This document shows, in pieces, positions 1-12,437 of a DNA stretch of 22,410 nucleotides (the stretch's first letter is position 1; each line of letters opens with the position of its first letter). Under the pieces are notes generated by a model. It was not told the origin of the DNA and did not search any database. It saw only the letters and a program-made list of their open reading frames with translations. The position numbers were made by a program, and so were the translations under genes. Origin of the DNA: a virus; IMG/VR virus record IMGVR_UViG_3300031565_000413, positions 1-22,410 of that record; one strand, 5' to 3'.

Positions 1-505
1 GTGAAGCGAGAAGAGAGGGCTCCCTGCGTGAGAAGGCGTAGGTATTGCCAGCCCAAGTTCCGCCCATTTTCCTCCCATCCCACACGGAGATGTCCATATC
101 TCCCGCCTCCAGCTTATCGATCATGACTTTGTTCCTGTGAAGGAAACGCTCCCTCTTGGTCATGATATACACGTAGTCCTGAGGGTACTCGATGGTGGCC
201 TTGGGAATGATCTCCTGAGCCATGAACGTCTTGATGTGCCCAGGCCACATGGATGCCTGCTCCTTGAGCGTACGACAGGGACAAACCCACAACTGGGGTA
301 TTCCCAACTTCCCCGCTTCCCAAGCCGCAGCCATGTCCGTCCCGATGGCTCCCCCATGAATCAGGAGGAGGTCCTTGTACTTGTCCTGTGCCTTGACCAA
401 GGCAAGGCGGAGTTGGGTCTGGACGTAAGCCCAGGTCGTGGTGGGCTCGAACGGGTTCAGGTAGCGATTCCGGAGCTTTCGGTGTCCACGGATGAGAATG
501 CGCAT
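1..505 (-). CDS. SLOG-domain (YspA/YoqJ-like) protein, 3' end cut by window edge (g11)
   Basis: 168 residues are visible before the left edge. The N-terminus reads MRILIRGHRKL and is followed at residues 49-57 by IHGGAIGTD, the Gly-rich loop plus GxD of the SLOG (DprA/LOG-like Rossmann) superfamily; the GHR near the start is typical of the YspA/YoqJ branch. Such proteins are thought to bind nucleotides or their derivatives; the substrate here is unknown. The ATG at 505 is chosen because GGAGG lies about 5 bases upstream. The frame stays open back to an ATG at 626 that overlaps the g10 stop, but that extension is Pro/Arg-rich, unlike a SLOG N-terminus, and is probably leader. Last visible gene of the minus-strand chain. 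Family fairly sure, function not. Confidence 0.75.
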   Translation of the reverse strand, partial: MRILIRGHRKLRNRYLNPFEPTTTWAYVQTQLRLALVKAQDKYKDLLLIHGGAIGTDMAAAWEAGKLGIPQLWVCPCRTLKEQASMWPGHIKTFMAQEIIPKATIEYPQDYVYIMTKRERFLHRNKVMIDKLEAGDMDISVWDGRKMGGTWAGNTYAFSRREPSLLAS

Positions 506-624
506 TTTTCCTCCAGTTTCAGAAGAGAGAATACTACAAGAGAAGGGACTCAGTGTGCGTTGTATTCGCAGGGGTGTGTGTTGGCGAAGAGGCGGTTGTT
601 TGGGAATGTTAGGGGGCGGCACCA
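506..624 (-). other. Leader between g10 and g11
   Basis: About 119 bases without a gene I trust. Read on the minus strand it is C-rich, then turns to CTTGTAGTATTCTCTC and a GGAGG before the g11 ATG. A similar TGTAGTATT follows the g9 stop near 875. I see no ribozyme core, terminator or clear promoter. The stretch is open in the g11 frame, so an N-terminal extension cannot be fully excluded. Confidence 0.35.
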
Positions 625-822
625 TTATGCCTTCCCAGCGCACTTCTTACATGATCCCACAATCATCACCCAATAACCACCCCATTCCTCAATGCGAACA
701 TCGTTATGACTCACCTCGGCCTTTGCCACAGGCTTACCGCACCCGTAGCAATAGACACCGCTGTTCTGGACCAGTTCCTCGAACAGAAACTCCGACTCTG
801 AAGGTTGCCATTCGTGTGCCAT
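625..822 (-). CDS. Small zinc-ribbon-like protein, 65 aa (g10)
   Basis: A 65-residue protein starting MAHEWQPS. It has two Cys pairs, CYGC near residue 25 and CKKC near residue 59, about 30 residues apart, which fits a single zinc ribbon binding one metal ion. No other domain is recognisable. The ATG at 822 is preferred over the in-frame GTG at 825 because AAGGA lies 4-5 bases before the ATG and would be too close to the GTG. A strong hairpin (835-867) sits just upstream of the Shine-Dalgarno. Function unknown; Cys-pair proteins are repeatedly present in this early cluster and may bind nucleic acid or host proteins. Confidence 0.7.
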   Translation of the reverse strand: MAHEWQPSESEFLFEELVQNSGVYCYGCGKPVAKAEVSHNDVRIEEWGGYWVMIVGSCKKCAGKA

Positions 823-834
823 CACTTCCTTTCT

Positions 835-867
835 GGGGAGGGCCCAGTATATTACTAGACCCTCCCC
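835..867 (-). promoter_or_regulatory. Strong leader hairpin upstream of g10
   Basis: GGGGAGGG (835-842 on the plus strand) is perfectly complementary to CCCTCCCC (860-867). On the minus-strand RNA the loop can pair further (CUAGU with ACUGG around AAUAU). There is no U-tract after it, so it is not a typical intrinsic terminator. It lies between the g9 stop and the g10 Shine-Dalgarno, and may be an RNase site, a 5' stabiliser or a translation regulator. A TATACT in the loop resembles a -10 element, so a promoter reading is possible. Confidence 0.5.
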
Positions 868-879
868 CCAACAGAAATA

Positions 880-2214
880 CTACACCTTGTGGAACTTCAC
901 GAGCGAGTCGCCCACCATCCGGTACCAGTGCTGAGTGTTCTCCCAGCAGTAGTCCCAGATGAGGTCGTCATTCCACACCGGCTCAACTCTGACAGCCAGT
1001 GCATTGGGCTTGAACGTGGGATCCGCGAGCTTGGTGAGAACCCCACGAGGGATGGGTAGGAAGACCGTTGCCGTGAAGAACAATTTCTTCCCGTTATAGT
1101 CTCCCTTGGAGCGCCTCCTCCTGACCCTGATGATCGGGGGAAACACGAAGTCTCTCCTCTGAACGCGATCACCCATGAAGTCCAAGAAGGGGCCGCTCAT
1201 GAGACTGGTGATCTCAACGACCTTGCGAGGGAGTTTATCCCCGCACTTGCATCCGGTGAAGGTCCGCTTGCAACGAGCGCAGCGACGAACCTTCTCCAGT
1301 CCCCAAATGTGCTTCTTGAAGAGCCGGAACTTGTTCGGGACCTTGGAGCGTCCATCCTCGCCAACCACCACCTCAACGAGATGGGGACCAGTGTAGGTGT
1401 CCTTGTCCAGGTCCAGCACAACATTGGAGAAGACGAAGCCCGAACGCTTCCCCAGATACGGAATGAGGGATCCGATCTCCTGGCAGACCGGGGACAGATC
1501 CACAATCCTGGTCCCAGCCTCCTCGAAGAGCGTCTCGCCGCTGGCCATGACCACTTGACGAGCAGCCTTGACCTTGACCTCATTTCGAGGTCTGTTGTTG
1601 ATGGCCACGTCATCGAGATGAAGCTCGACGGGGCCGGGATAGCCACCCTCGATGCTCCTCTCGTAGCCGTGGTGCTTGTTGATTTCGTGATGCCAGGTCT
1701 CCCCGACATCACAAGGAGCAGTACGACGCCCACCGATGACCTCAATCATGATGCCACCAGGGACCTCGTGCTCGATGCCGAGAACGATCTTGAGAGCGAC
1801 CATTTCGGCAAACTCCTTGACCGTGATCGGGTGAGTGGTAATCTTCTCATCCTTCACGGTCTGAATCAGCTCCCGGCCACTCTCGTGGTTCTCCCTGAGA
1901 ATGTCCAAGAGCCTACGCGTGGGGACAACCCTCACATTCCCAAGCATCTGGGACGCAAGGTCGTTGAACCTCCAGCGCATTACCGTAGTGCCCAGGTGGA
2001 AAGCCTGGTCACCAAGGACGGTGGGAGCCAGATCCTCATTCTGGCTATCATCCTCACCATCCTCCTCCTCGGTATAGGAGGACACGGCCTCATCGAATTC
2101 CTCGTTAGAGGTGTGAGTGAAGTAGCCAGCCGGAGCCTTGAACCGCCCAAGGCCATCAGCCATGCTGGCCCTCAACTCATCGATGAGGGTACGGAGGTCC
2201 TGCATAATGCTCAC
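880..2214 (-). CDS. Unassigned 444-aa phage protein with a Cys4 cluster (g9)
   Basis: The largest gene of the left module; I do not recognise its family. The first 110 residues are helical with an acidic stretch (residues 36-62). The middle (150-300) looks like a mixed alpha/beta domain with GGxxTAPCDxGETWHHE around 161-177. A Cys4 cluster, CARC and CKC, lies at 312-324. The C-terminus is rich in aromatic residues (DLIWDYCWENTQHWYRM). The start is GTG at 2214, with GGAG about 7 bases upstream; the ATG at 2205 would be too far. It is the first gene after the twister-like element (2281-2370) and a further hairpin (2249-2269). The plus-strand frame opposite it has no Shine-Dalgarno and no recognisable product, so I take the minus strand as coding. 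Confidence 0.75.
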   Translation of the reverse strand: MSIMQDLRTLIDELRASMADGLGRFKAPAGYFTHTSNEEFDEAVSSYTEEEDGEDDSQNEDLAPTVLGDQAFHLGTTVMRWRFNDLASQMLGNVRVVPTRRLLDILRENHESGRELIQTVKDEKITTHPITVKEFAEMVALKIVLGIEHEVPGGIMIEVIGGRRTAPCDVGETWHHEINKHHGYERSIEGGYPGPVELHLDDVAINNRPRNEVKVKAARQVVMASGETLFEEAGTRIVDLSPVCQEIGSLIPYLGKRSGFVFSNVVLDLDKDTYTGPHLVEVVVGEDGRSKVPNKFRLFKKHIWGLEKVRRCARCKRTFTGCKCGDKLPRKVVEITSLMSGPFLDFMGDRVQRRDFVFPPIIRVRRRRSKGDYNGKKLFFTATVFLPIPRGVLTKLADPTFKPNALAVRVEPVWNDDLIWDYCWENTQHWYRMVGDSLVKFHKV

Positions 2215-2248
2215 TGTCGTCTCCTTTCATAGAGAGTGAGCAGAGGAT

Positions 2249-2269
2249 ATAGTGGGACCACCCCACTAT
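2249..2269 (-). promoter_or_regulatory. Leader hairpin upstream of g9
   Basis: ATAGTGGG (2249-2256) and CCCACTAT (2262-2269) form a perfect 8-bp stem with a 5-base loop. It lies about 30 bases upstream of the g9 Shine-Dalgarno, between it and the twister-like element. It would be retained near the 5' end of the g9 mRNA after cleavage at the upstream element. No U-tract follows. Confidence 0.5.
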
Positions 2270-2280
2270 CTCTTATGTTG

Positions 2281-2370
2281 TTTAGGACTTGGGACCTAAT
2301 TGATAGAGGCACACGCTCTATCAAGGCCTTACATGGGGCCATTGCTGACCCCATGCCCTCGGTATATTAA
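2281..2370 (-). ncRNA. Twister-like self-cleaving ribozyme candidate (circularly permuted)
   Basis: Read 5' to 3' on the minus strand: GAGGG (2360-2356); a perfect 7-bp hairpin CAUGGGG/CCCCAUG (2355-2332, plus two more closing pairs) as P1; UAA (2331-2329), placing cleavage between U2331 and A2330; GGCC; a perfect 9-bp hairpin (2324-2300) where optional P3 belongs; then a 5-bp P4 hairpin UUAGG/CCUAA closing the loop UCCCAAGU (2294-2287). The twister L4 loop is UCCCAAGC, and its CCC can pair with the GGG of GAGGG as pseudoknot T1. The order equals a permuted twister opened near P5. Weak points are a P2 of only about two pairs, a poor P5, and one changed L4 base. It starts at the g8 stop codon. 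Confidence 0.55.
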
Positions 2371-2534
2371 CGGCAGTACTCGCAACCACTCCCACCACAG
2401 GAGCACTTGCTGTTGTCGCCCTCGTCCTCGCAGTACTCCACGTAGTACGAACACTCCTCGCAATCGCGATCATCGAGTAGAACACACGGCAACATCGGGG
2501 CGAGATCATCATAACAACTGCATCTGCGTGACAT
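2367..2534 (-). CDS. Cys-rich miniprotein, 55 aa (g8)
   Basis: A 55-residue protein beginning MSRRCSCYDDL, with about a dozen Cys residues. The middle has CEEC and the tail reads KCSCGGSGCEYCR. The tail pattern CSCxGxGCxxC recurs at the end of g5 (3195-3629) and resembles a half DnaJ-type zinc repeat. ATG 2534 is chosen for AGGAG 7 bases upstream; a longer open frame exists upstream but its extension covers the g7 gene. Probably binds one or two zinc ions; function unknown. Its TAA stop (2369-2367) lies at the beginning of the twister-like element. Confidence 0.7.
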   Translation of the reverse strand: MSRRCSCYDDLAPMLPCVLLDDRDCEECSYYVEYCEDEGDNSKCSCGGSGCEYCR

Positions 2535-2548
2535 AATGCATCTCCTCT

Positions 2549-2647
2549 CTACGACACCAACCCACAGAAAAGCGCGATGATGAACACCACCAACAGCGCC
2601 ACGACGAACGCCTTGTTCTGCCTGAACTGCTCGAAGAACTCTCTCAT
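2549..2647 (-). CDS. 32-aa single-pass membrane peptide (g7)
   Basis: Reads MREFFEQFRQNKAF followed by a continuous hydrophobic helix VVALLVVFIIALFCGLVS to the stop. The N-terminus is charged with Arg and Lys, so a single-pass inner-membrane peptide is likely. AGGAAAAGGAA precedes the ATG, and a GGGCA hairpin (2663-2676) lies just upstream. Its stop is 14 bases from the g8 ATG, so the two may be coupled. Small early phage membrane peptides often modify host membrane functions, but nothing here identifies a target. Confidence 0.65.
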   Translation of the reverse strand: MREFFEQFRQNKAFVVALLVVFIIALFCGLVS

Positions 2648-2662
2648 TTCCTTTTCCTCTCT

Positions 2663-2676
2663 GGGCAGTATTGCCC
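2663..2676 (-). promoter_or_regulatory. GGGCA leader hairpin upstream of g7
   Basis: On the minus strand GGGCA-AUAC-UGCCC forms a 5-bp tetraloop hairpin followed directly by AGAGAGGA, the Shine-Dalgarno region of g7. The same UGCCCAGAGAGGA string ends the hairpin before g6 (3160-3184), so the two leaders are related. Confidence 0.5.
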
Positions 2677-2679
2677 ATA

Positions 2680-3141
2680 TCAAGTGGAATAAAGCTCATC
2701 CATCCTACGGCAAGACAGAACCTTCCCGCCACTGGGCCTCCAGATGACACCAGATGCACAGTCCCAGGGATAGTACCACGTGAGCATCCTATACTCCCAA
2801 AAGTACGGACTGATTTCAATACCAGAATACTCCCGCGCTACACTTACCCAGTCTATAAGCCCACGCATCTCGAACCGCCTTCTGAAGCCCGCGAATCGCC
2901 TGTCGTTGTCGATAACCAGCACCTCGTCAGAGATGCCGATCTCTACCAGGAAATGACCTGGATCAGGCAACCAGTCTGGCATTTCGCTTTCCATCCACTC
3001 CAGCCACGAGTCGCCGATCCCGTACCACAGCCCACAAGGCTTGAATACCCTTTCCCCACCTACGCGTTTCACGTAAGTGACAGGTTTTGGGCTGATATGC
3101 CAACGCCCACACGGTAGCATAGCCCTACGCAGCGCCTCCAT
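2680..3141 (-). CDS. Unassigned 153-aa protein (KPxGLW...WDCASG motif type) (g6)
   Basis: Starts MEALRRAMLPCG; GGAGG lies about 10 bases before the ATG. Landmarks in order: KPCGLWYG (near 34), a Trp-rich stretch GDSWLEWM, LVEIG and EVLVID (65-77), a Phe-rich helix FAGFRRRF, LIDW followed by YSGIEISPY, and WYYPWDCASGVIW near the C-terminus. From memory, proteins with this series of motifs recur in phages and some bacteria without an assigned function; I cannot confirm this by search. The arrangement, with invariant-looking Trp, Tyr and Cys, suggests an enzyme, possibly with an ADP-ribosyltransferase-like fold, but that is only a guess. No signal peptide or membrane segment. Confidence 0.7.
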   Translation of the reverse strand: MEALRRAMLPCGRWHISPKPVTYVKRVGGERVFKPCGLWYGIGDSWLEWMESEMPDWLPDPGHFLVEIGISDEVLVIDNDRRFAGFRRRFEMRGLIDWVSVAREYSGIEISPYFWEYRMLTWYYPWDCASGVIWRPSGGKVLSCRRMDELYST

Positions 3142-3159
3142 GTCTATTGGCCCTCCTCT

Positions 3160-3184
3160 CTGGGCAGTTTATAGTCATGCCCAG
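3160..3184 (-). promoter_or_regulatory. GGGCA leader hairpin upstream of g6
   Basis: CTGGGCA (3160-3166) pairs with TGCCCAG (3178-3184): 7 bp closing an 11-base AT-rich loop. On the minus strand it is followed by AGAGAGGAGG, the g6 Shine-Dalgarno. The loop contains CTATAAA, which could instead be a -10 element. It is related to the hairpin at 2663-2676. Confidence 0.5.
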
Positions 3185-3194
3185 GACTGGTTTA

Positions 3195-3629
3195 CTAACC
3201 CTCGCAGGCCTTGCAGCCCTCGCCCTCGCAGGAGCAGCCGATCTCCTCCCGCGCCATGCCCTCACCACCGTCCTGGTACTGTTCCTCCTTTCGCATGAGG
3301 TAGAAGGTGAAGTCGTGCATATACAGGTACAGGCCCTTCAGGTCACCATCCGGGCTGTTGTACAGGAAGTCCCAGTTCACGAAGTAGGCCAACTTGTTGA
3401 TGGGGAGGAGGTTCTCCCCGTACAGCCTGGCCAGCCAGTACTTCCCCACCACCACGGGGATTTCGGCGAGGCGCGTCCAGGCCTCGGGCTTGTCGAGCAC
3501 GTAGGAGTGGTGCTCGGCGAGCAGCTTCTCCCTGCACTCCGGGCACAGGGATACGTCTCTCCTCACCTCCGACCAGCAATCCCACTGCCGCAAGCAGTGG
3601 GAGCACCTCAACTGGCACTCCGCGTCCAT
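3195..3629 (-). CDS. Zinc-ribbon protein with CSCxGxGCxxC tail, 144 aa (g5)
   Basis: The N-terminus holds CSHC (9-12) and CPEC (29-32), a zinc ribbon. Residues 60-115 are aromatic and hydrophobic without a clear membrane helix. The last twelve residues carry C132, C134, C139 and C142 in the pattern CSCxGxGCxxC shared with the g8 tail. ATG 3629 is preferred over GTG 3632 because AAAGGAG, inside the end of g4, is properly spaced only for the ATG. Two bases separate the g4 stop from this start, so the pair is probably translationally coupled. No family recognised. Confidence 0.72.
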   Translation of the reverse strand: MDAECQLRCSHCLRQWDCWSEVRRDVSLCPECREKLLAEHHSYVLDKPEAWTRLAEIPVVVGKYWLARLYGENLLPINKLAYFVNWDFLYNSPDGDLKGLYLYMHDFTFYLMRKEEQYQDGGEGMAREEIGCSCEGEGCKACEG

Positions 3630-3631
3630 CA

Positions 3632-3769
3632 CTACTCCTTTCCCATGGGCTTCCTGGTTTCACGCAGGATATCAGCCCACATCTTCAAGGCCTTCTCCTT
3701 CCCCTCCCTGATGGAGGCCCGTGCCACACGGATCTCCTCCTTCAGCTTGAGGTACGTCTTATAGTCCAT
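3632..3769 (-). CDS. 45-aa charged helical miniprotein (g4)
   Basis: Reads MDYKTYLKLKEEIRVARASI and continues as an amphipathic Lys/Glu/Arg-rich helix to KPMGKE. There are no Cys residues and no membrane segment. AAAGGAGG stands 3-5 bases before the ATG. Its last codons contain the Shine-Dalgarno of g5, and its stop is 2 bases from the g5 ATG. The hammerhead at 3790-3856 lies directly upstream, so this gene would head the RNA left after cleavage. Function unknown. Confidence 0.65.
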   Translation of the reverse strand: MDYKTYLKLKEEIRVARASIREGKEKALKMWADILRETRKPMGKE

Positions 3770-3789
3770 ACTCCTCCTTTCTTTGAGCT

Positions 3790-3856
3790 GCCATCATCAG
3801 ACCGTGCTTGCTCAAGGCACGATTATCCCACTGTCTCACGACAGGGGGATTTCGGC
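3790..3856 (-). ncRNA. Type II hammerhead ribozyme candidate, copy C
   Basis: Minus strand, 5' to 3': GCC (3856-3854), GAAA (3853-3850), stem III A3850-C3840 with G3835-U3825 closed by a GUGA tetraloop, triplet AUA with cleavage predicted after A3824, stem I AUCGUGC/GCACGGU (3823-3817 with 3807-3801), core CUGAUGA (3800-3794), one extra U, then GGC (3792-3790) pairing with the first GCC as a 3-bp stem II. Relative to copy B, stem III gains a U-A pair on both strands and the stem I sequence is entirely different yet still paired, which is compensatory evidence. G3856 is the last base of the g3 TAG stop. It lies between g3 and g4. Confidence 0.8.
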
Positions 3857-4119
3857 TAGGAGAGCCGAGCCATAAGCTCGACATCATCCTTGGGACGCCG
3901 GCTCCAGTCCCAAACTGTCCCTACACACAGGCCCTCATCACCCATGTCGTAGAGGAGCTTGGTATCGAGGAGCCAGTACAGGGCCTCCCACGCCTCGGGG
4001 TTGGTGAGGTCAATAGGCTTGCCATTTATGGCAATCCAGGTGACTACACCGCCCGAGCCGCAGTAGACCTCAGTACCATACTCCTCCCAGAGAAACCGGA
4101 ACTCTGGAGAGTTAGGCAT
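3856..4119 (-). CDS. Unassigned 87-aa protein (g3)
   Basis: Starts MPNSPEFRFLWEEYG. The sequence alternates short beta-like stretches (TEVYCGSGGVVTWIAINGKPI) with a helical PEAWEALYWLL segment, then ends charged. The frame is open further upstream through the repeat leader, but that part is the 69-base repeat and hammerhead copy B, so translation should start at ATG 4119, 3 bases after GGAGAG. The Shine-Dalgarno is inside a 7-bp hairpin (4121-4141). The stop codon TAG donates its G to stem II of hammerhead copy C. Function unknown. Confidence 0.65.
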   Translation of the reverse strand: MPNSPEFRFLWEEYGTEVYCGSGGVVTWIAINGKPIDLTNPEAWEALYWLLDTKLLYDMGDEGLCVGTVWDWSRRPKDDVELMARLS

Positions 4120-4188
4120 GTTCTCTCCTTTCAAGAGAGAAAACACTGTGCGCGGGCACGCGGTGCCCACTAGAGGTTGGCTGCCATC
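4120..4188 (-). repeat. 69-bp perfect direct repeat, leader copy B
   Basis: Identical base for base to 4467-4535, 347 bp away. It contains, on the minus strand, the start of hammerhead stem II, a 6-bp hairpin GGGCAC/GTGCCC with a CGC loop, and the Shine-Dalgarno hairpin. The perfect identity, beside diverged flanking hammerhead stems, suggests either a recent duplication or gene conversion, or strong selection on the leader. Confidence 0.9.
4121..4141 (-). promoter_or_regulatory. Shine-Dalgarno hairpin of g3
   Basis: On the minus strand UUCUCUC-UUGAAAG-GAGAGAA is a perfect 7-bp stem with a 7-base loop. The ribosome binding site AAAGGAG straddles loop and 3' strand, so folding would partly hide it. 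The same hairpin stands before g2 and g1. It could act as a temperature- or ribosome-responsive switch or as a 5' stabiliser. Confidence 0.6.
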
Positions 4189-4246
4189 GTCAGTGCCCAA
4201 GCACCACCCTGGGCAGACCCACTGTCTCACGACAGGGGGTTTCGGC
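4183..4246 (-). ncRNA. Type II hammerhead ribozyme candidate, copy B
   Basis: The cleanest copy, minus strand 5' to 3': GCC (4246-4244), GAAA (4243-4240), stem III A4240-C4231 with G4226-U4217 (one C/U mismatch) capped by GUGA, triplet GUC with cleavage predicted after C4216, stem I UGCCCAGG/CUUGGGCA (4215-4208 with 4201-4194) with loop GUGGUG, core CUGACGA (4193-4187), one extra U, and GGC (4185-4183) closing a 3-bp stem II with the first GCC. All hammerhead core elements occur in the order required for the type II permutation. It lies nine bases after the g2 stop. Departures from consensus are the extra U after the core and the short stem II. Confidence 0.85.
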
Positions 4247-4255
4247 TTGTAAGGG

Positions 4256-4465
4256 TTACCTGTCGGTGCCGCGCCCCCACTGGGAGCGAGGGGTCACGGT
4301 CAGCTCAAGGCTACCGTTCTCCCACACCTCAAGGTAGTACCACTTGCCGGCAACGGCAACGCCGCGCCCGTAAAGGCGTCGGCTGTCGTCGTTGGGCTTG
4401 GTACTAAACCCCACGCAAAGCGCCACGGTAACGACCGTGACTAGGACAAAGGCTGCCCACTTCAT
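4256..4465 (-). CDS. Small signal-anchored or secreted protein, 69 aa (g2)
   Basis: MKWAAFVLVTVVTVALCVGF forms an N-terminal hydrophobic segment with one Lys before it, a signal peptide or membrane anchor. No clear lipobox is present, though C17 lies at the end of the hydrophobic run. The remaining 45 residues (RRLYGRGVAVAGKWYYLEVW...) look like a small beta-rich extracytoplasmic domain. ATG 4465 follows GGAGAG. It is flanked by hammerhead copy A upstream and copy B downstream, so two cleavages would release it as a monocistronic mRNA. Possible roles include superinfection exclusion or membrane modification, without direct evidence. Confidence 0.65.
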   Translation of the reverse strand: MKWAAFVLVTVVTVALCVGFSTKPNDDSRRLYGRGVAVAGKWYYLEVWENGSLELTVTPRSQWGRGTDR

Positions 4466-4466
4466 C

Positions 4467-4535
4467 GTTCTCTCCTTTCAAGAGAGAAAACACTGTGCGC
4501 GGGCACGCGGTGCCCACTAGAGGTTGGCTGCCATC
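4467..4535 (-). repeat. 69-bp perfect direct repeat, leader copy A
   Basis: Identical to 4120-4188. It includes the GGGCAC/GTGCCC hairpin and the Shine-Dalgarno hairpin of g2. The similarity continues, with substitutions, through both hammerheads to about 4612 and 4243. Confidence 0.9.
4468..4488 (-). promoter_or_regulatory. Shine-Dalgarno hairpin of g2
   Basis: Same 7-bp stem and UUGAAAG loop as at 4121-4141, followed by CG and the g2 ATG. AAAGGAG is again partly inside the stem. Confidence 0.6.
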
Positions 4536-4615
4536 ATCAGTGCCCGGGCACCACCCCGAACAGACCCACTGCTTCTTGCACTGTCTCTCGACAGGGCCCA
4601 GCAGGGGGTTTCGGC
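4530..4615 (-). ncRNA. Type II hammerhead ribozyme candidate, copy A (extended stem III)
   Basis: Minus strand 5' to 3': GCC (4615-4613) directly after the g1 TAA; GAAA (4612-4609); a longer stem III whose outer part pairs A4609-U4600 with A4573-U4564 (one C/U mismatch) and whose inner part is CUGUC-GAGA-GACAG (4594-4581); triplet GUC with cleavage predicted after C4563; stem I UGUUCGGG/CCCGGGCA (4562-4555 with 4548-4541) with loop GUGGUG; core CUGAUGA (4540-4534); extra U; GGC (4532-4530) pairing with GCC. Stem I differs from copy B at several positions, but pairing and loop are kept. The tetraloop changes GUGA to GAGA, both GNRA. Confidence 0.83.
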
Positions 4616-4753
4616 TTAGTCGCCCAGATAGTACTCGTCCGAGAACGAGTACATCTGGCAACCGAAGACCCACACCTTAACACTGAGGAACCGACTCCGA
4701 ATCCTCAGTTGGACGTGGATCTTCCTTCCCAAACGACGGATTCTGAAGGACAT
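4616..4753 (-). CDS. 45-aa basic miniprotein (g1)
   Basis: Reads MSFRIRRLGRKIHVQLRIRS and ends MYSFSDEYYLGD, so the N-terminal half is strongly basic and the C-terminus acidic and aromatic. No Cys pair (a single Cys) and no membrane helix. AAAGGAGAG stands 5 bases before the ATG, inside the third copy of the Shine-Dalgarno hairpin (4757-4775). It is the first gene of the minus-strand chain, nearest the divergent control region, and its stop codon is immediately followed by hammerhead copy A. A nucleic-acid-binding role is possible from charge alone. Confidence 0.6.
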   Translation of the reverse strand: MSFRIRRLGRKIHVQLRIRSRFLSVKVWVFGCQMYSFSDEYYLGD

Positions 4754-4756
4754 TAG

Positions 4757-4775
4757 TCTCTCCTTTCAAGAGAGA
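4757..4775 (-). promoter_or_regulatory. Shine-Dalgarno hairpin of g1
   Basis: UCUCUC-UUGAAAG-GAGAGA on the minus strand, a 6-bp version of the hairpins at 4121-4141 and 4468-4488, placed before the first gene. Upstream of it a second hairpin (4779-4799; GCCC...GGGC enclosing CGG...CCG with loop GUGUU) lies in the leader. There is no ribozyme core here, as expected for the head of the transcript. Confidence 0.55.
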
Positions 4776-4990
4776 TTGCCCTCGGAACACCCGGGGGCGT
4801 GAAACAAAAAGTGGGGCATATACATATATACCCTCATAGGTCCATAGAATTGATATCGAAAAATTTCATCCTATAAAGACTCTGTTCGTTAAAATTATTG
4901 TTGCCGTAAAATATTTTGCTTTAAAAGTTTATCCTGGTTTGCTATATTATTTTTGTAGTATAAAAACAACTCTATAAGGAGTAGTTGGCC
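4776..4990. promoter_or_regulatory. AT-rich divergent control region
   Basis: This 215-base gap separates minus-strand g1 from the first plus-strand gene and marks a sharp drop in GC. It must hold the divergent start signals. Visible are an imperfect palindrome GGGcATATA...TATAcCC (4814-4833), a possible operator or minus-strand -10 (GGGTATATAT), and an extended -10 for the plus strand at 4940-4948. No convincing -35 is seen for either direction, so phage-specific or activator-dependent transcription is possible. Confidence 0.5.
4940..4948 (+). promoter_or_regulatory. Putative extended -10 (TGCTATATT) of the right module
   Basis: TG-C-TATATT matches the extended -10 form TGnTATAAT with one mismatch. 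It lies about 43 bases before the acyltransferase ATG. No good -35 hexamer is present at 16-18 bases upstream, which extended -10 promoters tolerate. Confidence 0.35.
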
Positions 4991-5584
4991 ATGGCAGTTA
5001 GAAAGACGGACTCGCCTGCCGACCTACTCAAAATCCGCGCATTTATCTATAAATCATACTGTGAGGACTACAGGTACGAAGATCCCGCATCTTATAAAGA
5101 TAAGCTCTACGCGCTAGATAGCTGGGACCCCATATCAGATCATTACTTATTTGAGGAGGACGGTAACGTTGTCGGCTGTTGCCGACTCGTTCATCCCTCT
5201 TCTAATATGTTCCCCTGTGAGTGCTTTTGTAAAATAGATCGCGCGCTTTCTGACCTTGAAAGAAGTAAATCCTGCGAAATTTCCCGCATTATTGCCAAAA
5301 AACATAATGAAGAGGGGCTTTCTGCTACCTCTATTATCTTTTTTAGCCTGGTTTTTGCTTGTTATCTGTATATGGTTGAGTGTGGTTATAGGTATATGTT
5401 GGGTGGTATGGACAAGCGGTTTATTGCTTTATTGAGAAGGATAGGCCTTAGGCATGAACAATTAGGGCCTTACACAGACTATCATGGAAGTAGAGCTGCA
5501 TGGATTCTTGACCTTGAAACAGTCAATTTTCAGGAGGGAAATTTACGAAAGTACAGAGACTTGGTTTCTAACAAAACTACCTGA
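4991..5584 (+). CDS. LuxI/FeeM-like N-acyltransferase (autoinducer-synthase fold), 197 aa
   Basis: Belongs by motif to the GNAT-like superfamily of acyl-homoserine lactone synthases and N-acyl amino acid synthases (FeeM), which join an acyl-ACP or acyl-CoA chain to an amine. Seen in order: Arg16 in LLKIRAFIY, D43xxD46xxSxHYLF matching the DxxDxxxxHYL of LuxI, GCCRLV with Arg65, NMFP, and EISR at 96-99, matching the Glu and Arg of the family. Length fits (about 200). ATG 4991 is chosen over TTG 4985 because AAGGAG is 9 bases upstream. It is the first gene of the plus-strand module. The product (AHL, acyl amino acid or protein acylation) cannot be told. The C-terminal half is Cys- and Tyr-rich, not typical of LuxI. 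Confidence 0.72.
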   Translation: MAVRKTDSPADLLKIRAFIYKSYCEDYRYEDPASYKDKLYALDSWDPISDHYLFEEDGNVVGCCRLVHPSSNMFPCECFCKIDRALSDLERSKSCEISRIIAKKHNEEGLSATSIIFFSLVFACYLYMVECGYRYMLGGMDKRFIALLRRIGLRHEQLGPYTDYHGSRAAWILDLETVNFQEGNLRKYRDLVSNKTT

Positions 5585-5594
5585 GGATTTTAAT

Positions 5595-5909
5595 ATGGCT
5601 AAGAAAAGTGTGGAACCAAGCTGGATTGAGGCTTTGGATAATGTAGTTGTTAAGCTGGTTACTTTTAAAGAAAGCAAATTATGGGGCGAGCTTAATATGG
5701 ATAAAGGGGTTATCTCTATCGCCAAGAGTCCTAATCTAGAGATGCAACTTAAGACCCTTGTTCACGAGTGCTTACATTGGGTTTATGACCCGTATGGTGA
5801 GCAAGAGGACTTGGTAGAGGAGCTGGAAGAGAGGGAGTGGAATAAGATTATGCATACGAAGTGCGACCATAAAACGCTTCTAAGACTTATTAAAGCTTTA
5901 TACAAGTAG
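5595..5909 (+). CDS. Small HExxH metallopeptidase-like protein, 104 aa
   Basis: Carries LVHECLHW with the HExxH zinc motif at H57, E58 and H61, followed by acidic residues (E71, E75, E76) that could supply the third ligand. Only about 104 residues, much shorter than SprT or ImmA peptidases, so it is a minimal version of a zincin core as seen in many phage hypothetical proteins. GAGGA stands 7 bases before ATG 5595; longer in-frame readings overlap the acyltransferase. It follows that gene by 10 bases and is likely cotranscribed. Substrate unknown; proteolytic activity is an inference from the motif. Confidence 0.7.
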   Translation: MAKKSVEPSWIEALDNVVVKLVTFKESKLWGELNMDKGVISIAKSPNLEMQLKTLVHECLHWVYDPYGEQEDLVEELEEREWNKIMHTKCDHKTLLRLIKALYK

Positions 5910-5925
5910 AAAGAGGGTTAGAAAA

Positions 5926-6294
5926 ATGCCCAGAATTTTCCAACAAACTCTTCAGAAAGTAGAAGTAATGATAGATGTTAAGTGTGATATTTGTGGGAAA
6001 TCTACTAAAGCTGATACACATGAAGGTTTTGAAAGAGCGCAAATTGTGGCGGCTTTTAATGAAACCATCCATGCTGGGGATAGGTGGGTAGTAGAACTAT
6101 GTCATTACTGTTTCCATGACTTTATGGAGTGGTTGCTTATAGATAAGCTTGGAACCTGCCTTTACCATAATGCGGCGGAGGATGATGAACTTAATCCGAT
6201 GGATGAAACAGATATTGATGATATAAGGGCGTTTTTCGCAGGCCGAAGAACCGAGCGCTTGACGGAATCTACAGAAGAATCTACATTTGAATAA
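5926..6294 (+). CDS. Zinc-ribbon-like hypothetical protein, 122 aa
   Basis: CDIC (residues 20-23) and CHYC (about 60-63) form two Cys pairs separated by roughly 36 residues with DRWVVEL between them, a layout common in small phage zinc-ribbon proteins. The C-terminal third is acidic and probably disordered (AAEDDELNPMDETDIDD, TESTEESTFE). GAGGG lies about 9 bases before the ATG. It ends the first gene group of the plus strand; a 141-base leader with a nut-like site follows. Function unknown. Confidence 0.7.
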   Translation: MPRIFQQTLQKVEVMIDVKCDICGKSTKADTHEGFERAQIVAAFNETIHAGDRWVVELCHYCFHDFMEWLLIDKLGTCLYHNAAEDDELNPMDETDIDDIRAFFAGRRTERLTESTEESTFE

Positions 6295-6435
6295 AAAAGT
6301 TTTTTGTTTAGTAAAATCGCCGTTTATGTTGTATGTTTATAAGCAGTAGTGAGTTAGCTCTTTAACAAATCATCCACAGAGGAACCCCGAGGTGGGGTGG
6401 GAAGATGAAAACAATTTTTGGTCCCGGAGGATAAA
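6295..6435 (+). promoter_or_regulatory. Leader before the lipoprotein protease
   Basis: 141 bases without a gene. The first part is very AT-rich (AAAAAAGTTTTTT), able to form only a weak hairpin. The middle contains TATAAG-like sequences but no clear promoter. The last half contains the boxA-like element and a 5-bp pentaloop hairpin described separately, then CGGAGGA as Shine-Dalgarno. Confidence 0.5.
6357..6398 (+). promoter_or_regulatory. nut-like antitermination site (boxA + boxB-like hairpin)
   Basis: GCTCTTTAACA (6357-6367) equals 11 of the 12 bases of the rRNA boxA core TGCTCTTTAACA used by NusB/S10. Sixteen bases on, ACCCC-GAGGT-GGGGT (6384-6398) makes a 5-bp stem with a pentaloop, the size of a lambda boxB. 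The pair stands ahead of a run of about 16 kb of plus-strand genes. Known nut sites use this order and spacing loosely. The loop GAGGT is not the lambda GNRA-like fold, so any partner protein would differ. Confidence 0.5.
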
Positions 6436-7263
6436 ATGGGAGTCAAAAAAATTGGCTTACTACTTTTTGTGTTTCTAATCAGTTGTGCTTCCGCCCCGGT
6501 AATAATTCAGGAACCAGCTTCCTCCATTTCGGAGATTAATGAAGGAGTGGAGTTGTATCAAAAAGTGGGACCTAGTGCTGTTGTTATTGTTGCAGAACAA
6601 CGCGATGCTACAGGTAAGATACTTGGGAGGTCCCTGGGTTCAGGAGTTTGTGTTCTGAATAAGGATAATCACTCTGTTATCCTAACTGCAGGACACTGCT
6701 ATGTTGAAGGGTTTGAGTACTCAGTAATCAACTTTGACGGGAAGATTCTAAAAGGTATTTTCTTTAATGTTTCTGAAACAGATGACCTTGGGCTTATCTG
6801 GGTAGATGAATTTATCCCGGCGATTCGAATGGCGGAGGCTATGCCAGAGAGGGGTTCGGTTATCTATTCGCTTGGTAATAAATTGAGCACTATTCTATTT
6901 TGGTGTAATAGTGGTATTTACTGCGGGAGCAAAGAAAGAAAATTTGACTACTGCACTATTGCTACCCATCCGGGGAACTCAGGTGGAGGTATCTATTATA
7001 GGAATAAGCTCATAGGGATTACTTCCAGAATCGCGATGATTAGTAATCCTTCTCCAATGGGCGGTTCTCCACAGATACTGCCAACTATGTCATTCTTTGT
7101 ACCCCTAAGTAGAATTACTGCTTACTTAATAGCAGTTCGTCCATATACAATCACTCTAACAGAGGAACCAAAGCCGCTTACTGGAAAAGTTACATACGTA
7201 AATCCGAATCCAAAGCCTAGTGTGGATATTTGGAGAGAAACAGATGGAGTTCCAACCAAGTAA
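6436..7263 (+). CDS. Lipoprotein trypsin-like serine protease, 275 aa
   Basis: The N-terminus MGVKKIGLLLFVFLISC is a lipoprotein signal with lipobox LISC and acylated Cys17; the following Ala gives no inner-membrane retention signal. The body is a chymotrypsin-fold protease: TAGHC with His87, DDLGLI with Asp116/117, and HPGNSGGG with Ser182, spaced as in DegP/S1 enzymes. No PDZ domain follows; the tail (230-275) is Pro-rich. ATG 6436 follows CGGAGGA by about 5 bases; a TTG 18 bases earlier is not needed. It is preceded by the nut-like leader. Phage-encoded extracytoplasmic proteases of this type are unusual; it may act on envelope or surface proteins during or after infection. Confidence 0.82.
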   Translation: MGVKKIGLLLFVFLISCASAPVIIQEPASSISEINEGVELYQKVGPSAVVIVAEQRDATGKILGRSLGSGVCVLNKDNHSVILTAGHCYVEGFEYSVINFDGKILKGIFFNVSETDDLGLIWVDEFIPAIRMAEAMPERGSVIYSLGNKLSTILFWCNSGIYCGSKERKFDYCTIATHPGNSGGGIYYRNKLIGITSRIAMISNPSPMGGSPQILPTMSFFVPLSRITAYLIAVRPYTITLTEEPKPLTGKVTYVNPNPKPSVDIWRETDGVPTK

Positions 7264-7471
7264 GTTGCATAAAGAGCTTGAAAGGCCCGAATGCCGTGAG
7301 CATTTTAAGAAGCACTATGCTACTGCATTAAGTTTCTATGAAAAATATCTTATTAGCGGGGGATTAAGCTGTAATTTAACCCAGGCAGCCTTACGTGCTA
7401 TCTGGGCTATGGAAATAGAGCGAGACCCAGAAGGTTTTGAGAAATCGCTCAATAGTGGCGTTTGGGATTAA
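7244..7471 (+). CDS. Unassigned 75-aa protein
   Basis: MEFQPSKLHKELERPECREHF and onward is mainly helical, with a Tyr-rich middle (HYATALSFYEKYLISGG) and a terminal acidic stretch. It overlaps the last 20 bases of the protease gene in another frame; ATG 7244 is chosen for GGAGA 7 bases upstream. The LTQAALRAIWAMEIERDPEGFE segment could be a helix-turn-helix-like pair, but this is weak. It precedes the Cys-motif protein by 17 bases. A small-terminase or DNA-binding role cannot be excluded. Confidence 0.6.
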   Translation: MEFQPSKLHKELERPECREHFKKHYATALSFYEKYLISGGLSCNLTQAALRAIWAMEIERDPEGFEKSLNSGVWD

Positions 7472-7488
7472 ATAGAAGGAGAGGTTAA

Positions 7489-8271
7489 ATGCCGAATCCA
7501 TTTAAAAATCTATTGGTGGAGGAAGTAGAGCCGACTTACGAAGAATCTACTTTACCGGAGGTACGGGAAACCTTGCCTCCGGTACAAATAGAGCATAATG
7601 AGTTTTTATTAGAAGAGATAGGCGATAAAGTTCATTTTAATGATAACCAATTAGCCCAAATTAAGCAGTATATGAAAAGAATTGATATGGGTGTTGGTCT
7701 TGTTGCTGCTCCAATGATATGCAAGGATGAGGCATGTCCTTTTAAGTCGAAATGTCCTATAAAGGGGACAGGTGCTGATATGACTAACCTGGTTGGCAAG
7801 GCGTGTCCCGTAGAAGGTGCTATTCATAGAAAAACAGTAGATGAACTAGCGCGGTCTTTGGGAATGGACCTTTCCAATGAATATACTGATGGTTTTGATA
7901 AAAGGATGATTGATGACCTAGCTACTATTACTATACTTGAAAAACGAGCCCTTGAAGAGATGAGCAATGAGCCAGGAATTGGTATTACTAGCGCCTGTGG
8001 CTTTACCCCTGATGGGGATCCAATAGAAAAGCTGCAATTGAACCCAAGAGTTTTACTTATTGAAAAACTTGGTAGAGTTAAGAGTAAAATTCAACAGGAG
8101 CTAATTGCAACTAGAAGGTCTAAGGTTGCTGCGCTTGGACATAGTGAGGATGTTTCTAAAAAGGCGGCTGATTTAATGTCTAGGATTAATAGCGTTATCG
8201 AGCGTCATAAGAGGGAAGCACGAGTAACAAACGAAGATATTATAGAAGCGGAGTTTGAAGAAAGACCCTAA
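7489..8271 (+). CDS. Cys-motif protein, 260 aa (possible terminase partner)
   Basis: Contains APMICKDEACPFKSKCP with C78, C83 and C89, then GKACPVE with C106, a CX4CX5CX16C motif fit for zinc or an iron-sulfur cluster. The N-terminal 45 residues are acidic and Pro-rich; the C-terminal half is helical and basic (LIATRRSKVAALGHSEDVSKKAADLM). From memory, similar motifs occur in uncharacterised proteins of large phages. Its place at the head of the packaging/head block makes a small terminase or DNA-binding role possible, but no helix-turn-helix is clear. AGGAGAGG precedes the ATG. Its TAA overlaps the next ATG (TAATG), implying coupling. Confidence 0.65.
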   Translation: MPNPFKNLLVEEVEPTYEESTLPEVRETLPPVQIEHNEFLLEEIGDKVHFNDNQLAQIKQYMKRIDMGVGLVAAPMICKDEACPFKSKCPIKGTGADMTNLVGKACPVEGAIHRKTVDELARSLGMDLSNEYTDGFDKRMIDDLATITILEKRALEEMSNEPGIGITSACGFTPDGDPIEKLQLNPRVLLIEKLGRVKSKIQQELIATRRSKVAALGHSEDVSKKAADLMSRINSVIERHKREARVTNEDIIEAEFEERP

Positions 8272-10640
8272 TGGCGAAAATTACCGGGATATTTGACCTA
8301 GAAGCTACCGACCTACAAGGTTGGACTAGGGTTAGCTCGAAGCCCCCGGCAATTAGTCAGTTTGCCCTTGCCGAGCTTACCCCAGAAGGCAAAATTGGCG
8401 ATGTTATTATCGGAGGAGGTAAAAACGAGGGTTTTACTGATATCCTTGTTGAATTAGTCAAGAAATACAAGATTAAGTCTGTTCAAAAAATACCTAGGGG
8501 TTTTTGGGAAGAATTAGCAAGCACTGGTATGTATGGGTGGTCTGCCTTCAAAGAAGGCGGATTTTTAAATAAACAACTTAGGTATCATTTACAGAAAACA
8601 ATTGCTTATGTAAATAGTGGTCAAACATTACCCGGTGCGATGGACCAGATTGACCTATTGATGAACTGGACAGAAGGCCATATCAACAAAGGTAATTCTG
8701 TTGAGTTGTTAGCAAAATCCCGAGGCTTTGATATCAACCTTATCTACTCTTCTCTTGGGGCAGCTAAGGATAGTCCGCAAAAACAAGCCAGACTTGGGCG
8801 ACTAAATACACTCCTACGTTCTGGGCTTGAGATAGGTTCCGTAGAACAAGGCGCTTATTTATCAATGATTAAGGCGATGTGGGAAGATACATCGCTAGTT
8901 CCTAAGTACGTGGGCGCAAAAGAGATTGAGGCGGCTATCTTTGCAGGCGAGAAGAAAGTCGGTATGGAGGTAATGAAGCCATATTATTCTCTATATGATA
9001 TGGTTCATGATGTAAAGAAAGTAGCGATGGGCGCTGATCCCAAGAAGATATATGCAGGGATGGGGGGTCGGGCTCTTGAAGAACTTTCCAAGGTAAGAAC
9101 AGAAGAGGGAATTTTAGCTCTTCAAAGAAAAGCTTCTACCGAACCCTGGTTAGAAAGGGAATTAGCCGCACACTACAGGAAGAAGTCGCTTGAAATACGT
9201 AACGTAGAACTAGAACAACACCTGACATTCCCAACATTTGAAAAGGTTGCAGGACAAAAACAAGAACAATTAGCGAGCGTACTTGGCATCCTTGATGAAC
9301 GACAGCACCACGCTCTTGCGGATATTAGTACAGCAGCTGAACTTACAACAGGATTTAAGGGACGCACAGACTTAGGGCGCACACTATTATCTGATCCTTA
9401 TTATGAATTCGTAGCAAACCAACGACTGGCGTCTGTTGCCGCAGAAAAGTTAGTGAAAACAGGCACACAGCCAGTAAGCGCAAGATTTTCAATGGAAGTT
9501 TTGCAGGCAGGGGCTTCCCGCATTTCTCCTCGCTCCTCTCCTCTTCCCCTTCTCGCTCTCGGCGGGGGGCTCCTGCTTGCCTCTAAAATCGGCGATAAAT
9601 TTAAACCAAATCCCTATAAACAATTTGGAGAGCAGATAAGGGGTTATATAGAAGGAATTCGCAAACCTATTACTCAATGGGACACGATTCCTGGCATTCG
9701 CCCGAGCCCAGGGAACGTAAGCGACTTTTCTTCTGGGCGCGATGTTAGTAGGGTACTTGAACAGGGTGGTTATGGAGGAGTAAGATTCCACCCCGGCTTA
9801 TGGGCCGCGCAGATGAGATATACGCCTGATGTTCAAAGGGCAGCTGAATATGGCTCAAAAATGACCGCTATTCCTAGTATATATAAACCCACAGATAGCG
9901 AATTAAGAAATCAGCAATTAGAGCTTGCTGATTACGTTATGTTCATGGAGGACGCGGACACAGTCACCCTTCAACGAGCATGGATTAGTAGGAATATGCC
10001 GGTTATTGGTCCAGCAATGGGCAGTCTTCAGCAAGGGATAATGAATATTCTTCCTAAAAAACTAGCAGATAAAATGATGGGCGGTTTCCAGGTTCGTTTA
10101 AAGGGAATTGACGCACCTGAGCTTGGTGAAAAAACTACTACTTTAGGAAGCCAGCCATTTGCTGAAGAATCACTTGATATAGCAAGAAGTATATTAAGTG
10201 AAGCTACTACAGTAGATATTGACTTAAGTCAATCTACTTTCGGTAGGTATGTTGGAACTTTCAAGAGTGGAACCCGCGACCTTAACCGAGAGATTGTAGA
10301 GCAGGGCGGGGCTATGGGAAGCCGCGCCTATATGGCCGCTGAATATACTGCTCAAAGTAAAGAAGCGGGAATTTGGCAAAGCCCATTTTACTTTGGGGTT
10401 CGCCAAGGAAATGAGCAAGTAGGAGAAGTAGGTCTAGCACAGATAAACAAGATTAAAAGCCTTTCTGAAAAACCCAGGAATATGGCAGTATATAGTGCTG
10501 GTTTATGGGCATTAATGACTCCGGCACAAAAACACGCTATGAGAGACCCTTATGGTCAAAACGCCCATTTATTTCCTGGCATTTATAAAAGTAGATATAC
10601 CGATTTAATGGGTTATAATACTGGGAGTATTACTTCATGA
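8271..10640 (+). CDS. DnaQ-like exonuclease / SNase fusion protein, 789 aa
   Basis: Two nuclease signatures in one chain. At the N-terminus GIFDLEATDL gives the DxE motif (D9, E11) of DEDD/DnaQ exonucleases, with PAISQFALAEL behind it; later exonuclease motifs are not clear. Residues about 423-440 (LPLLALGGGLLLASKIG) are a hydrophobic, possibly membrane-inserting segment. Residues 555-720 are a staphylococcal-nuclease domain: DADT (561-564), RLKGIDAPE with R609, D614 and E617 equal to R35, D40 and E43 of nuclease, FGR with R659 equal to R87, and the closing EAGIW. The C-terminus is basic and aromatic. It could be a virion-carried protein that cuts host DNA on entry, or a packaging-linked nuclease. 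It overlaps both neighbours (TAATG, ATGA). Confidence 0.75.
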   Translation: MAKITGIFDLEATDLQGWTRVSSKPPAISQFALAELTPEGKIGDVIIGGGKNEGFTDILVELVKKYKIKSVQKIPRGFWEELASTGMYGWSAFKEGGFLNKQLRYHLQKTIAYVNSGQTLPGAMDQIDLLMNWTEGHINKGNSVELLAKSRGFDINLIYSSLGAAKDSPQKQARLGRLNTLLRSGLEIGSVEQGAYLSMIKAMWEDTSLVPKYVGAKEIEAAIFAGEKKVGMEVMKPYYSLYDMVHDVKKVAMGADPKKIYAGMGGRALEELSKVRTEEGILALQRKASTEPWLERELAAHYRKKSLEIRNVELEQHLTFPTFEKVAGQKQEQLASVLGILDERQHHALADISTAAELTTGFKGRTDLGRTLLSDPYYEFVANQRLASVAAEKLVKTGTQPVSARFSMEVLQAGASRISPRSSPLPLLALGGGLLLASKIGDKFKPNPYKQFGEQIRGYIEGIRKPITQWDTIPGIRPSPGNVSDFSSGRDVSRVLEQGGYGGVRFHPGLWAAQMRYTPDVQRAAEYGSKMTAIPSIYKPTDSELRNQQLELADYVMFMEDADTVTLQRAWISRNMPVIGPAMGSLQQGIMNILPKKLADKMMGGFQVRLKGIDAPELGEKTTTLGSQPFAEESLDIARSILSEATTVDIDLSQSTFGRYVGTFKSGTRDLNREIVEQGGAMGSRAYMAAEYTAQSKEAGIWQSPFYFGVRQGNEQVGEVGLAQINKIKSLSEKPRNMAVYSAGLWALMTPAQKHAMRDPYGQNAHLFPGIYKSRYTDLMGYNTGSITS

Positions 10641-11149
10641 GAGGAACATTTCTAAGAGCGCTTAACCCGCTAGCTGCTTCGACTATGCAACAGTTGAAGA
10701 AGCTTGGTGGAGATAATATGTTCAAGAACCTAGGCGGTGTTACTAAATCTTTGTGGGGTATGGTAAATAATAAAAGTAGCGGGGGTTTAAAGAACTCCTT
10801 TAAAGAATACTTTGCTGGTAAAAGATTAACTTCTAGACTTGGTGGAGAAAGTTTTCCTGGAAAATGGTTAGCTAGAGGATCAGCAGAGAATGTAGCTAGG
10901 ATAAGTAATATAAGAAAGGGCGTTTTTGGTGGTGCTGCTGCCTGGGCTGGTCTTAATCTCCTAGACCCAGATGCTACAACCACACGTATTGCTAACAGAG
11001 GGATGGAATTCGGACTTGGATATGGCGCTTTTAGTATTGGAAAAGCAGCAGCGTTTGGGAAATTCGGAAAAGCGGCATTACCAGCTACTAAATGGGTTGG
11101 GCGTGGTTTAGCAACTGCATTTGGAGCAAGAATGGTGGGGTTAATATAA
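10637..11149 (+). CDS. Gly/Ala-rich hydrophobic protein 1, 170 aa
   Basis: MRGTFLRALNPLAAS starts a basic, Gly-rich protein. Residues 95-125 (GVFGGAAAWAGLNLL) and 135-170 (FGLGYGAFSIGKAAAFG to LATAFGARMVGLI) are hydrophobic with small residues, fit for membrane-inserting or self-associating helices. Its ATG overlaps the previous TGA (ATGA). It is first of three adjacent genes of this kind between the nuclease fusion and terminase. Such small-residue proteins in a virion block could be internal ejection or pore proteins, comparable in place but not in sequence to T7 internal core proteins. Inference only. Confidence 0.65.
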   Translation: MRGTFLRALNPLAASTMQQLKKLGGDNMFKNLGGVTKSLWGMVNNKSSGGLKNSFKEYFAGKRLTSRLGGESFPGKWLARGSAENVARISNIRKGVFGGAAAWAGLNLLDPDATTTRIANRGMEFGLGYGAFSIGKAAAFGKFGKAALPATKWVGRGLATAFGARMVGLI

Positions 11150-11860
11150 ATGTTTGGTGAATTTCTAAAAAAAGTGGCTGGTTTCGTAGGCCCAAAGATA
11201 TCTGGGGAAGGTGGAGCAGCCCTTGCTAAGAGCGCTAAGGCCGCTGGATCTTCTGTTGCTAAGCTTTGGAATAATAAGCGTTTCTTATATACTGCTGGTG
11301 GATTTACTGCTGCAGGTCTTGGTGCCAGTATAGGAACTGGCAACTGGGGATATCTTCCTGTTGGCATTGGTGCTGGCTTAGCTGGTGGGATTAGCGGTGG
11401 ATTAGGTAAGGGTCCATTCAAGAGAATTGTAGGTGCTTCTGCATTAGGGATGGGTGCTGGCTTAGCCGGTGTTGGCCCAATGGGTGTTCCCATAGCGGTA
11501 GGTGCAACTCTTGCTACTCCATGGGCCCTTAAAGGATACGGCAAGGGCGTTACTCAAATTCCCAAAGTTTTTAAATCATATGGGCGATTAGTTCGTGGGC
11601 GTCCATTTGACGCTGCCAAAACCCTAGGTAGAATGAAGAACCCCTACTGGGCTACGTTTGCTCTTGGTACTGGAATAGGTCTTGGTTGGGGTGGATTAAA
11701 AACCGCAATTCATTCAGGAAATGCAACAGCAGGATATTTCCCTGGTGGTATAAATTATATGCCCCCAGGTAGAGGCGGTATGGCTAGCGATCCAATGAAT
11801 ACAGCTGGATTAACACTAGCGCTACATAGGCATAACAGGTCTAGCAATAGGGTAATGTAA
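11150..11860 (+). CDS. Gly/Ala-rich hydrophobic protein 2, 236 aa
   Basis: Begins MFGEFLKKVAGFVG directly after the previous stop. Residues 45-130 are Gly/Ala-rich helices with membrane character (FTAAGLGASIGTGNWG, GIGAGLAGGISGGLG, ALGMGAGLAGVGPMGVPIAVGATLAT). The tail is PMNTAGLTLALHRHNRSSNRVM, a DPxNTxGLTxALH motif that I recall at the ends of other phage virion-block proteins. The first six residues match hydrophobic protein 3 (M[FI]GEF[LF]K), hinting at common ancestry. A TAATG overlap leads to the next gene. Probably a membrane-active virion component; not proven. Confidence 0.65.
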   Translation: MFGEFLKKVAGFVGPKISGEGGAALAKSAKAAGSSVAKLWNNKRFLYTAGGFTAAGLGASIGTGNWGYLPVGIGAGLAGGISGGLGKGPFKRIVGASALGMGAGLAGVGPMGVPIAVGATLATPWALKGYGKGVTQIPKVFKSYGRLVRGRPFDAAKTLGRMKNPYWATFALGTGIGLGWGGLKTAIHSGNATAGYFPGGINYMPPGRGGMASDPMNTAGLTLALHRHNRSSNRVM

Positions 11861-12405: not shown

Positions 12406-12437
12406 GTTAACAACTTATCGCCTTACCCTGGGCCACC

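Follow-up and report, generated by a model that had tools for sequence, protein, structure and literature searches.

Three gene boundaries in a row, all in one minus-strand operon of a 22.4-kb linear virus record (the window, that is, the whole stretch analysed), each hold a type II hammerhead ribozyme. The genes of the record run on the minus strand over positions 1-4800, and we consider it likely, at a probability of roughly 0.68, that the three ribozymes cut the polycistronic RNA of this operon into single-gene mRNAs. Motif, placement and conservation can be read directly from the DNA; cleavage of the three in the cell and an effect on mRNA stability are what we infer. The initial annotation had placed three such ribozymes in the gaps g1/g2, g2/g3 and g3/g4, and this holds at the very bases it gave, each copy being complete in its gap with GAAA, stem III, triplet, stem I hairpin, CUGANGA and the GCC/GGC ends in the order it had claimed. 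Along the minus strand the features are:

g1, 4616-4753, minus strand: 45-aa open reading frame; HH1 begins directly after its stop codon.
HH1, 4522-4616, minus strand: type II hammerhead in the g1/g2 gap with a long, branched stem III and a predicted cut after C4563 (GUC); found by Rfam RF02276, descriptor and fold.
HH1 core, minus strand: GCC 4615-4613, GAAA 4612-4609, GUC ending at C4563, CUGAUGA 4540-4534, GGC 4532-4530.
HH1 pseudoknot, 4525-4553, minus strand: loop I UGGU 4553-4550 with tail GCCA 4528-4525; 4 bp.
g2 leader after HH1, 4466-4529, minus strand: hairpin GGGCACCGCGUGCCC, then hairpin UUCUCUCUUGAAAGGAGAGAA, which includes the Shine-Dalgarno sequence; from sequence and fold.
g2, 4256-4465, minus strand: 69-aa open reading frame with HH1 on one side and HH2 on the other.
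HH2, 4175-4247, minus strand: type II hammerhead in the g2/g3 gap with a predicted cut after C4216 (GUC); found by Rfam RF02276, descriptor and fold.
HH2 core, minus strand: GCC 4246-4244, GAAA 4243-4240, GUC ending at C4216, CUGACGA 4193-4187, GGC 4185-4183.
HH2 pseudoknot, 4178-4206, minus strand: loop I UGGU 4206-4203 with tail GCCA 4181-4178; 4 bp.
g3 leader after HH2, 4120-4182, minus strand: the same two hairpins as in the g2 leader; from sequence and fold.
g3, 3856-4119, minus strand: 87-aa open reading frame with HH2 on one side and HH3 on the other; its stop codon overlaps the first base of HH3.
HH3, 3782-3857, minus strand: type II hammerhead in the g3/g4 gap with a predicted cut after A3824 (AUA); found by a sub-threshold RF02276 match, descriptor and a 6-bp pseudoknot.
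HH3 core, minus strand: GCC 3856-3854, GAAA 3853-3850, AUA ending at A3824, CUGAUGA 3800-3794, GGC 3792-3790.
HH3 pseudoknot, 3783-3815, minus strand: loop I UUGAGC 3815-3810 with tail GCUCAA 3788-3783; perfect 6 bp.
g4, 3632-3769, minus strand: 45-aa open reading frame starting 20 nt after HH3 and preceded by AAAGGAGG.

All three copies retain the full catalytic core, with CUGANGA, GAAA and a UH triplet in the type II order, and the topology is that of type II, with stems I and III closed by loops and stem II open; assignment to the plain type II class is supported. In HH1, HH2 and HH3, respectively, stem I has 8, 8 and 7 bp and the first helix of stem III 4, 4 and 5 bp, and the distance from stop codon to hammerhead is 0 nt, 9 nt and an overlap. 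Stem II has 3 bp in each and follows one extra U, placed after CUGANGA and ahead of GGC; of 243 related hammerheads, 178 carry an extra base at the same place, a proportion that the search pattern favoured. Cleavage after C4563, C4216 and A3824 is predicted from the established hammerhead rule, AUA being a less usual triplet.

The initial annotation also pointed to the Rfam families Hammerhead_II and HH10, and only the former stood up in the covariance-model search. Against Hammerhead_II (RF02276; gathering cut-off 37 bits) two of the three copies are significant matches, HH2 at 51.9 bits and HH1 at 50.2 bits. HH3 scores 30.7 bits, under the cut-off, with an E-value of 2.6e-6 when RF02276 alone is run on this record and of 0.011 when all 4227 families are run on the window. 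HH10 and HH9 gave no match, and either subtype was rejected, RF02276 alone being kept at the three sites once overlapping Rfam matches of the same clan were reduced to the best. Our own descriptor (GAAA, stem III, UH, stem I, CUGANGA, stem II), scanned over both strands of the window, returned exactly HH1-HH3 with the cut positions predicted earlier and no further hammerhead on either strand. Chance occurrence was rejected, dinucleotide-preserving shuffles giving 0.03 per window against the three found.

The pairing between loop I and the 3' tail is common, although not universal, in type II hammerheads. Since the Rfam model does not score pseudoknots, this pairing is independent support for the sub-threshold HH3, whose stem I and loop differ from those of HH1 and HH2 and whose loop is complementary to its own tail throughout (6 bp, versus 3 bp in cross-pairs with HH1 or HH2). 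Related loci supplied 204 distinct loop/tail pairs, whose longest runs of pairs average 4.94, versus 3.97 when loops and tails are re-paired; the highest of 100 shuffles reached 4.10. Stem I differs at five positions between HH1 (UGUUCGGG...CCCGGGCA) and HH2 (UGCCCAGG...CUUGGGCA) and keeps all eight pairs, one of them through a double change from G-C to A-U. In single-strand folding, the minimum-free-energy fold of HH1 is the canonical three-way junction, and for HH2 the canonical fold is both the minimum-energy and the centroid structure. The nested minimum-energy fold of HH3 is not a hammerhead, the program preferring the pseudoknot helix over stem I, and the 3' products of HH1 and HH2 can alternatively refold with the leader hairpins.

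A 22-letter pattern taken from the shared core found relatives in at least 120 stretches of viral contigs, and many of the matches listed are arrays with their copies on one strand, including one of 11 hammerheads (L112) and one of nine (L010). A run of alternating genes and hammerheads in L141 (IMGVR_UViG_3300033112_000310, 875-13935) holds 23 type II hammerheads in succession by the descriptor and 20 by Rfam; they occupy nearly every gene boundary over 13 kb, usually 0-23 nt after the stop codon, in a block that encodes, among others, an antirestriction protein, a protein like Ku and possibly a DNA methyltransferase. Six Streptomyces phages carry 59 type II hammerheads: nine each in Hank144 (L038), R4 (L154; NC_019414) and Pablito, 11 each in Animus and Loofah, and 10 in phiELB20. 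All 59 lie on the coding strand, 51 have their cut site in an annotated gap, where 8.6 would be expected, and a hammerhead sits in 44 of the 48 annotated gaps of at least 70 nt. The Rfam cut-off is passed by seven of eight matches in Hank144 and nine of nine in R4. Over 16 arrays, 102 of 127 hammerheads begin at a stop codon (22.2 expected), defined as a stop end within -30 to +6 nt of the hammerhead and lying at -1 to +18 nt in most cases; for 92 of the 127 (20.4 expected) a Shine-Dalgarno sequence and start codon follow at a distance of 8-45 nt, most often 24-27 nt. At L112 13977/13908, L010 5156/5088 and L143 198/267, one gap holds two adjacent hammerheads spaced by about 70 nt.

The proposed course of events is as follows. 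Each hammerhead would fold during transcription and cut itself at a point past the stop codon of the upstream gene but ahead of the Shine-Dalgarno sequence of the downstream one. With the cut so placed, both reading frames would stay intact and each mRNA would have its own ribosome-binding site. With stems I and III being closed hairpins, the upstream mRNA would carry the stem III hairpin and a 2',3'-cyclic phosphate at its end, and the downstream mRNA the stem I hairpin and a 5'-hydroxyl at its start. The chemistry and the hairpin ends are established for the class. Ends capped in this way should resist 3' exonucleases and 5'-phosphate-dependent decay; hence the likely purpose would be to give each small gene an mRNA lifetime and an expression level of its own without separate promoters or terminators. 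This explanation is preferred on the strength of the Rfam and descriptor matches, the canonical folds of HH1 and HH2, the kept stem I pairs, the pseudoknots, the placement counts and published cleavage, which is on record in vitro for tandem hammerheads of phages and in E. coli for one set of three (PMC3088659). We counted against it the sub-threshold score, AUA triplet and non-hammerhead nested fold of HH3, together with the refolding of the HH1 and HH2 products with their leaders.

The main rival, which fits the same placement, is a switch coupled to translation: a ribosome terminating at the stop codon would cover the stem II strand and GAAA, so that cleavage would take place only when the upstream gene is untranslated, and the operon would sense translation and be uncoupled or degraded accordingly. 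The tight stop spacing of HH1, HH2, HH3 and the 102 related copies speaks for such a switch, but the same spacing is expected if a ribozyme simply fills the gap in a compact phage genome, and natural hammerheads with a tertiary contact are reported as fast; we regard the switch as unlikely. Recombination or mobility could also account for the modules, if small genes could come, go or change places by way of near identical cassettes and cleavage were a side effect. The leaders of g2 and g3 are near identical over about 65 nt, so the HH1 and HH2 modules flank g2 as direct repeats, and gene content next to hammerheads varies among phages. However, the copies of L141 and of the Streptomyces phages have diverged in sequence yet retain stems and pseudoknots, which is explained by selection on RNA folding and not by repeat homology, leaving the cassettes quite improbable.

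Some of the copies, or all, might lack activity in the cell, with the hairpins serving only as mRNA stabilisers or leader structures. This would suit the AUA triplet and sub-threshold score of HH3, but each of the three keeps its core letters intact, a constraint that plain hairpins would not impose, and GUC is kept in 227 of 243 relatives, a figure biased by the search pattern; this reading is very improbable. Tandem copies would also give every internal piece a matching 5'-hydroxyl and 2',3'-cyclic phosphate, as re-ligation into circular single-gene RNAs would need. Circular or spliced products were looked for by Perreault et al. and none was found (PMC3088659), and we give re-ligation hardly any credence.

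A hairpin common to g1, g2 and g3, CUCUCUUGAAAGGAGAG, lies at about 4778-4757, 4490-4468 and 4144-4122 on the minus strand, a few nucleotides before the start codon, and its 3' arm holds part of the Shine-Dalgarno sequence. A role of this hairpin in translation control is possible; its exact sequence is absent from the other viral contigs searched. Elsewhere in the left part, a GC-rich plain hairpin, not a ribozyme, stands just before the Shine-Dalgarno sequence at the minus-strand gaps 3195-3142, 2680-2647 and 879-826. The initial annotation called the genes beside the hammerheads early phage genes, a label that is not borne out; a family search matched none of g1, g2, g3 and g4 to a known family (none above the cut-off for g3). 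We found no tRNA or tmRNA in the window, no DNA relatives of the region among 50,697 phages and no relatives of the 444-aa and 789-aa proteins. The sole close relative found is a fragment with the same portal gene that stops short of the left part. Since a type II hammerhead is present in none of 16 records with relatives of the gene at 2680-3141, this gene does not travel with the hammerheads.

A fourth candidate lies further along the same strand:

Twister-P5-like candidate, 2283-2363, minus strand: intergenic, flanked by a gene that ends at 2367 and by the 444-aa gene (880-2214); RF02684.

It probably represents a twister variant, as distinct from a filed member of the family, to judge from its sequence. 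Compared with twister type P5 (RF02684), it shares the GAGGGC, UGUAA and GGUCCCAAG motifs, the P1 and P4 hairpins and the conserved L1/L4 letters, and differs by its score of 31.9 bits (E 0.0006), below the 37.6-bit gathering cut-off, and by a P2 of only 2 bp (GG/CC), as against about four Watson-Crick pairs in the twister stem (PMC5408937). The variant pattern matched two other phage contigs with the same short P2: L155 (4539-4470, 37.1 bits), directly after a TAG stop and 1.4 kb from a full twister-P5 (54.2 bits), and L156 (8648-8738), where a similar element follows TAG. Over the three copies CGAGGGC, UGUAAGG and GGUCCCAAG are constant, and the letters of P1, P3 and P4 change with pairing kept. 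As no Twister-P5 was found in 56 other records, most of them hammerhead-bearing, a twister beside a hammerhead is not a rule.

The record itself may join the left and right parts of different phages, through assembly, near 4.8-5.0 kb. GC content falls there from about 57% to 41%, and codon choice is quite different on the two sides (GC3 0.74 on the left versus 0.35 on the right). One left gene resembles genes of Gordonia, Mycobacterium and Microbacterium phages, and the terminase of the right part is nearest to that of a Moorella phage. Gene direction also changes at 4800-5000, and left genes look actinophage-like, right genes not. The hammerheads lie wholly in the left part, so the possible join does not touch HH1-HH3, but these copies should be assigned to the phage of the right-part terminase and portal only after a check. 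Neither the possible join nor the twister candidate appears in the initial annotation.

We know of no settled role for hammerhead ribozymes in bacteria and phages since their discovery there. We see even odds that a wide range of phages generally mature their mRNAs by saturated ribozyme processing; if so, nearly every boundary of an accessory or anti-defence gene block would hold a hammerhead or, in some cases, a twister variant, placed precisely after the stop codon and ahead of the ribosome-binding site, in lieu of separate promoters and terminators. The near-full occupancy of long gaps and the fixed stop and start spacing suggest selection for gene-by-gene cutting, which is directly testable because R4, Hank144 and relatives grow on laboratory Streptomyces. 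Phage annotation would also need correcting, as in R4, where six of the nine predicted cut sites fall inside annotated reading frames. In that genome gp75.1 and gp60.1 overlap hammerheads for the most part, and a number of start codons seem wrongly placed.

The kind of arrangement is already known, given that clustered phage hammerheads were described in 2011, when Perreault et al. reported type II hammerheads, their pseudoknot and clusters flanking phage genes, and proposed single-gene mRNAs among other possibilities (PMC3088659). Hammerheads and twisters have likewise been reported in association with phage genes and other self-cleaving ribozymes (PMC4604425). In the mostly open-access literature searched, we found no report of hammerheads in Streptomyces or R4-like phages or of arrays this long; what is added here is the saturation of boundaries, the exact placement and tractable phages. 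With the RF02276 hammerheads of phages and prophages (PMC3088659) the window copies share core letters, open stem II, hairpin stems I and III, the loop I/3' tail pseudoknot and clustering around phage genes. They differ from the RF02276 type in the extra U before stem II and, for HH3, the AUA triplet, and from the published sets in standing at consecutive gene boundaries, of which relatives fill up to 23 in succession. The nearest parallel, the triple set around ardA in an Agrobacterium tumefaciens prophage (PMC3088659), likewise has three tandem copies flanking small phage genes, and cleavage of that set has been demonstrated both in vitro and in E. coli. The genes differ: no antirestriction gene is recognised beside the window copies, whereas the R4 and L141 arrays have antirestriction genes.
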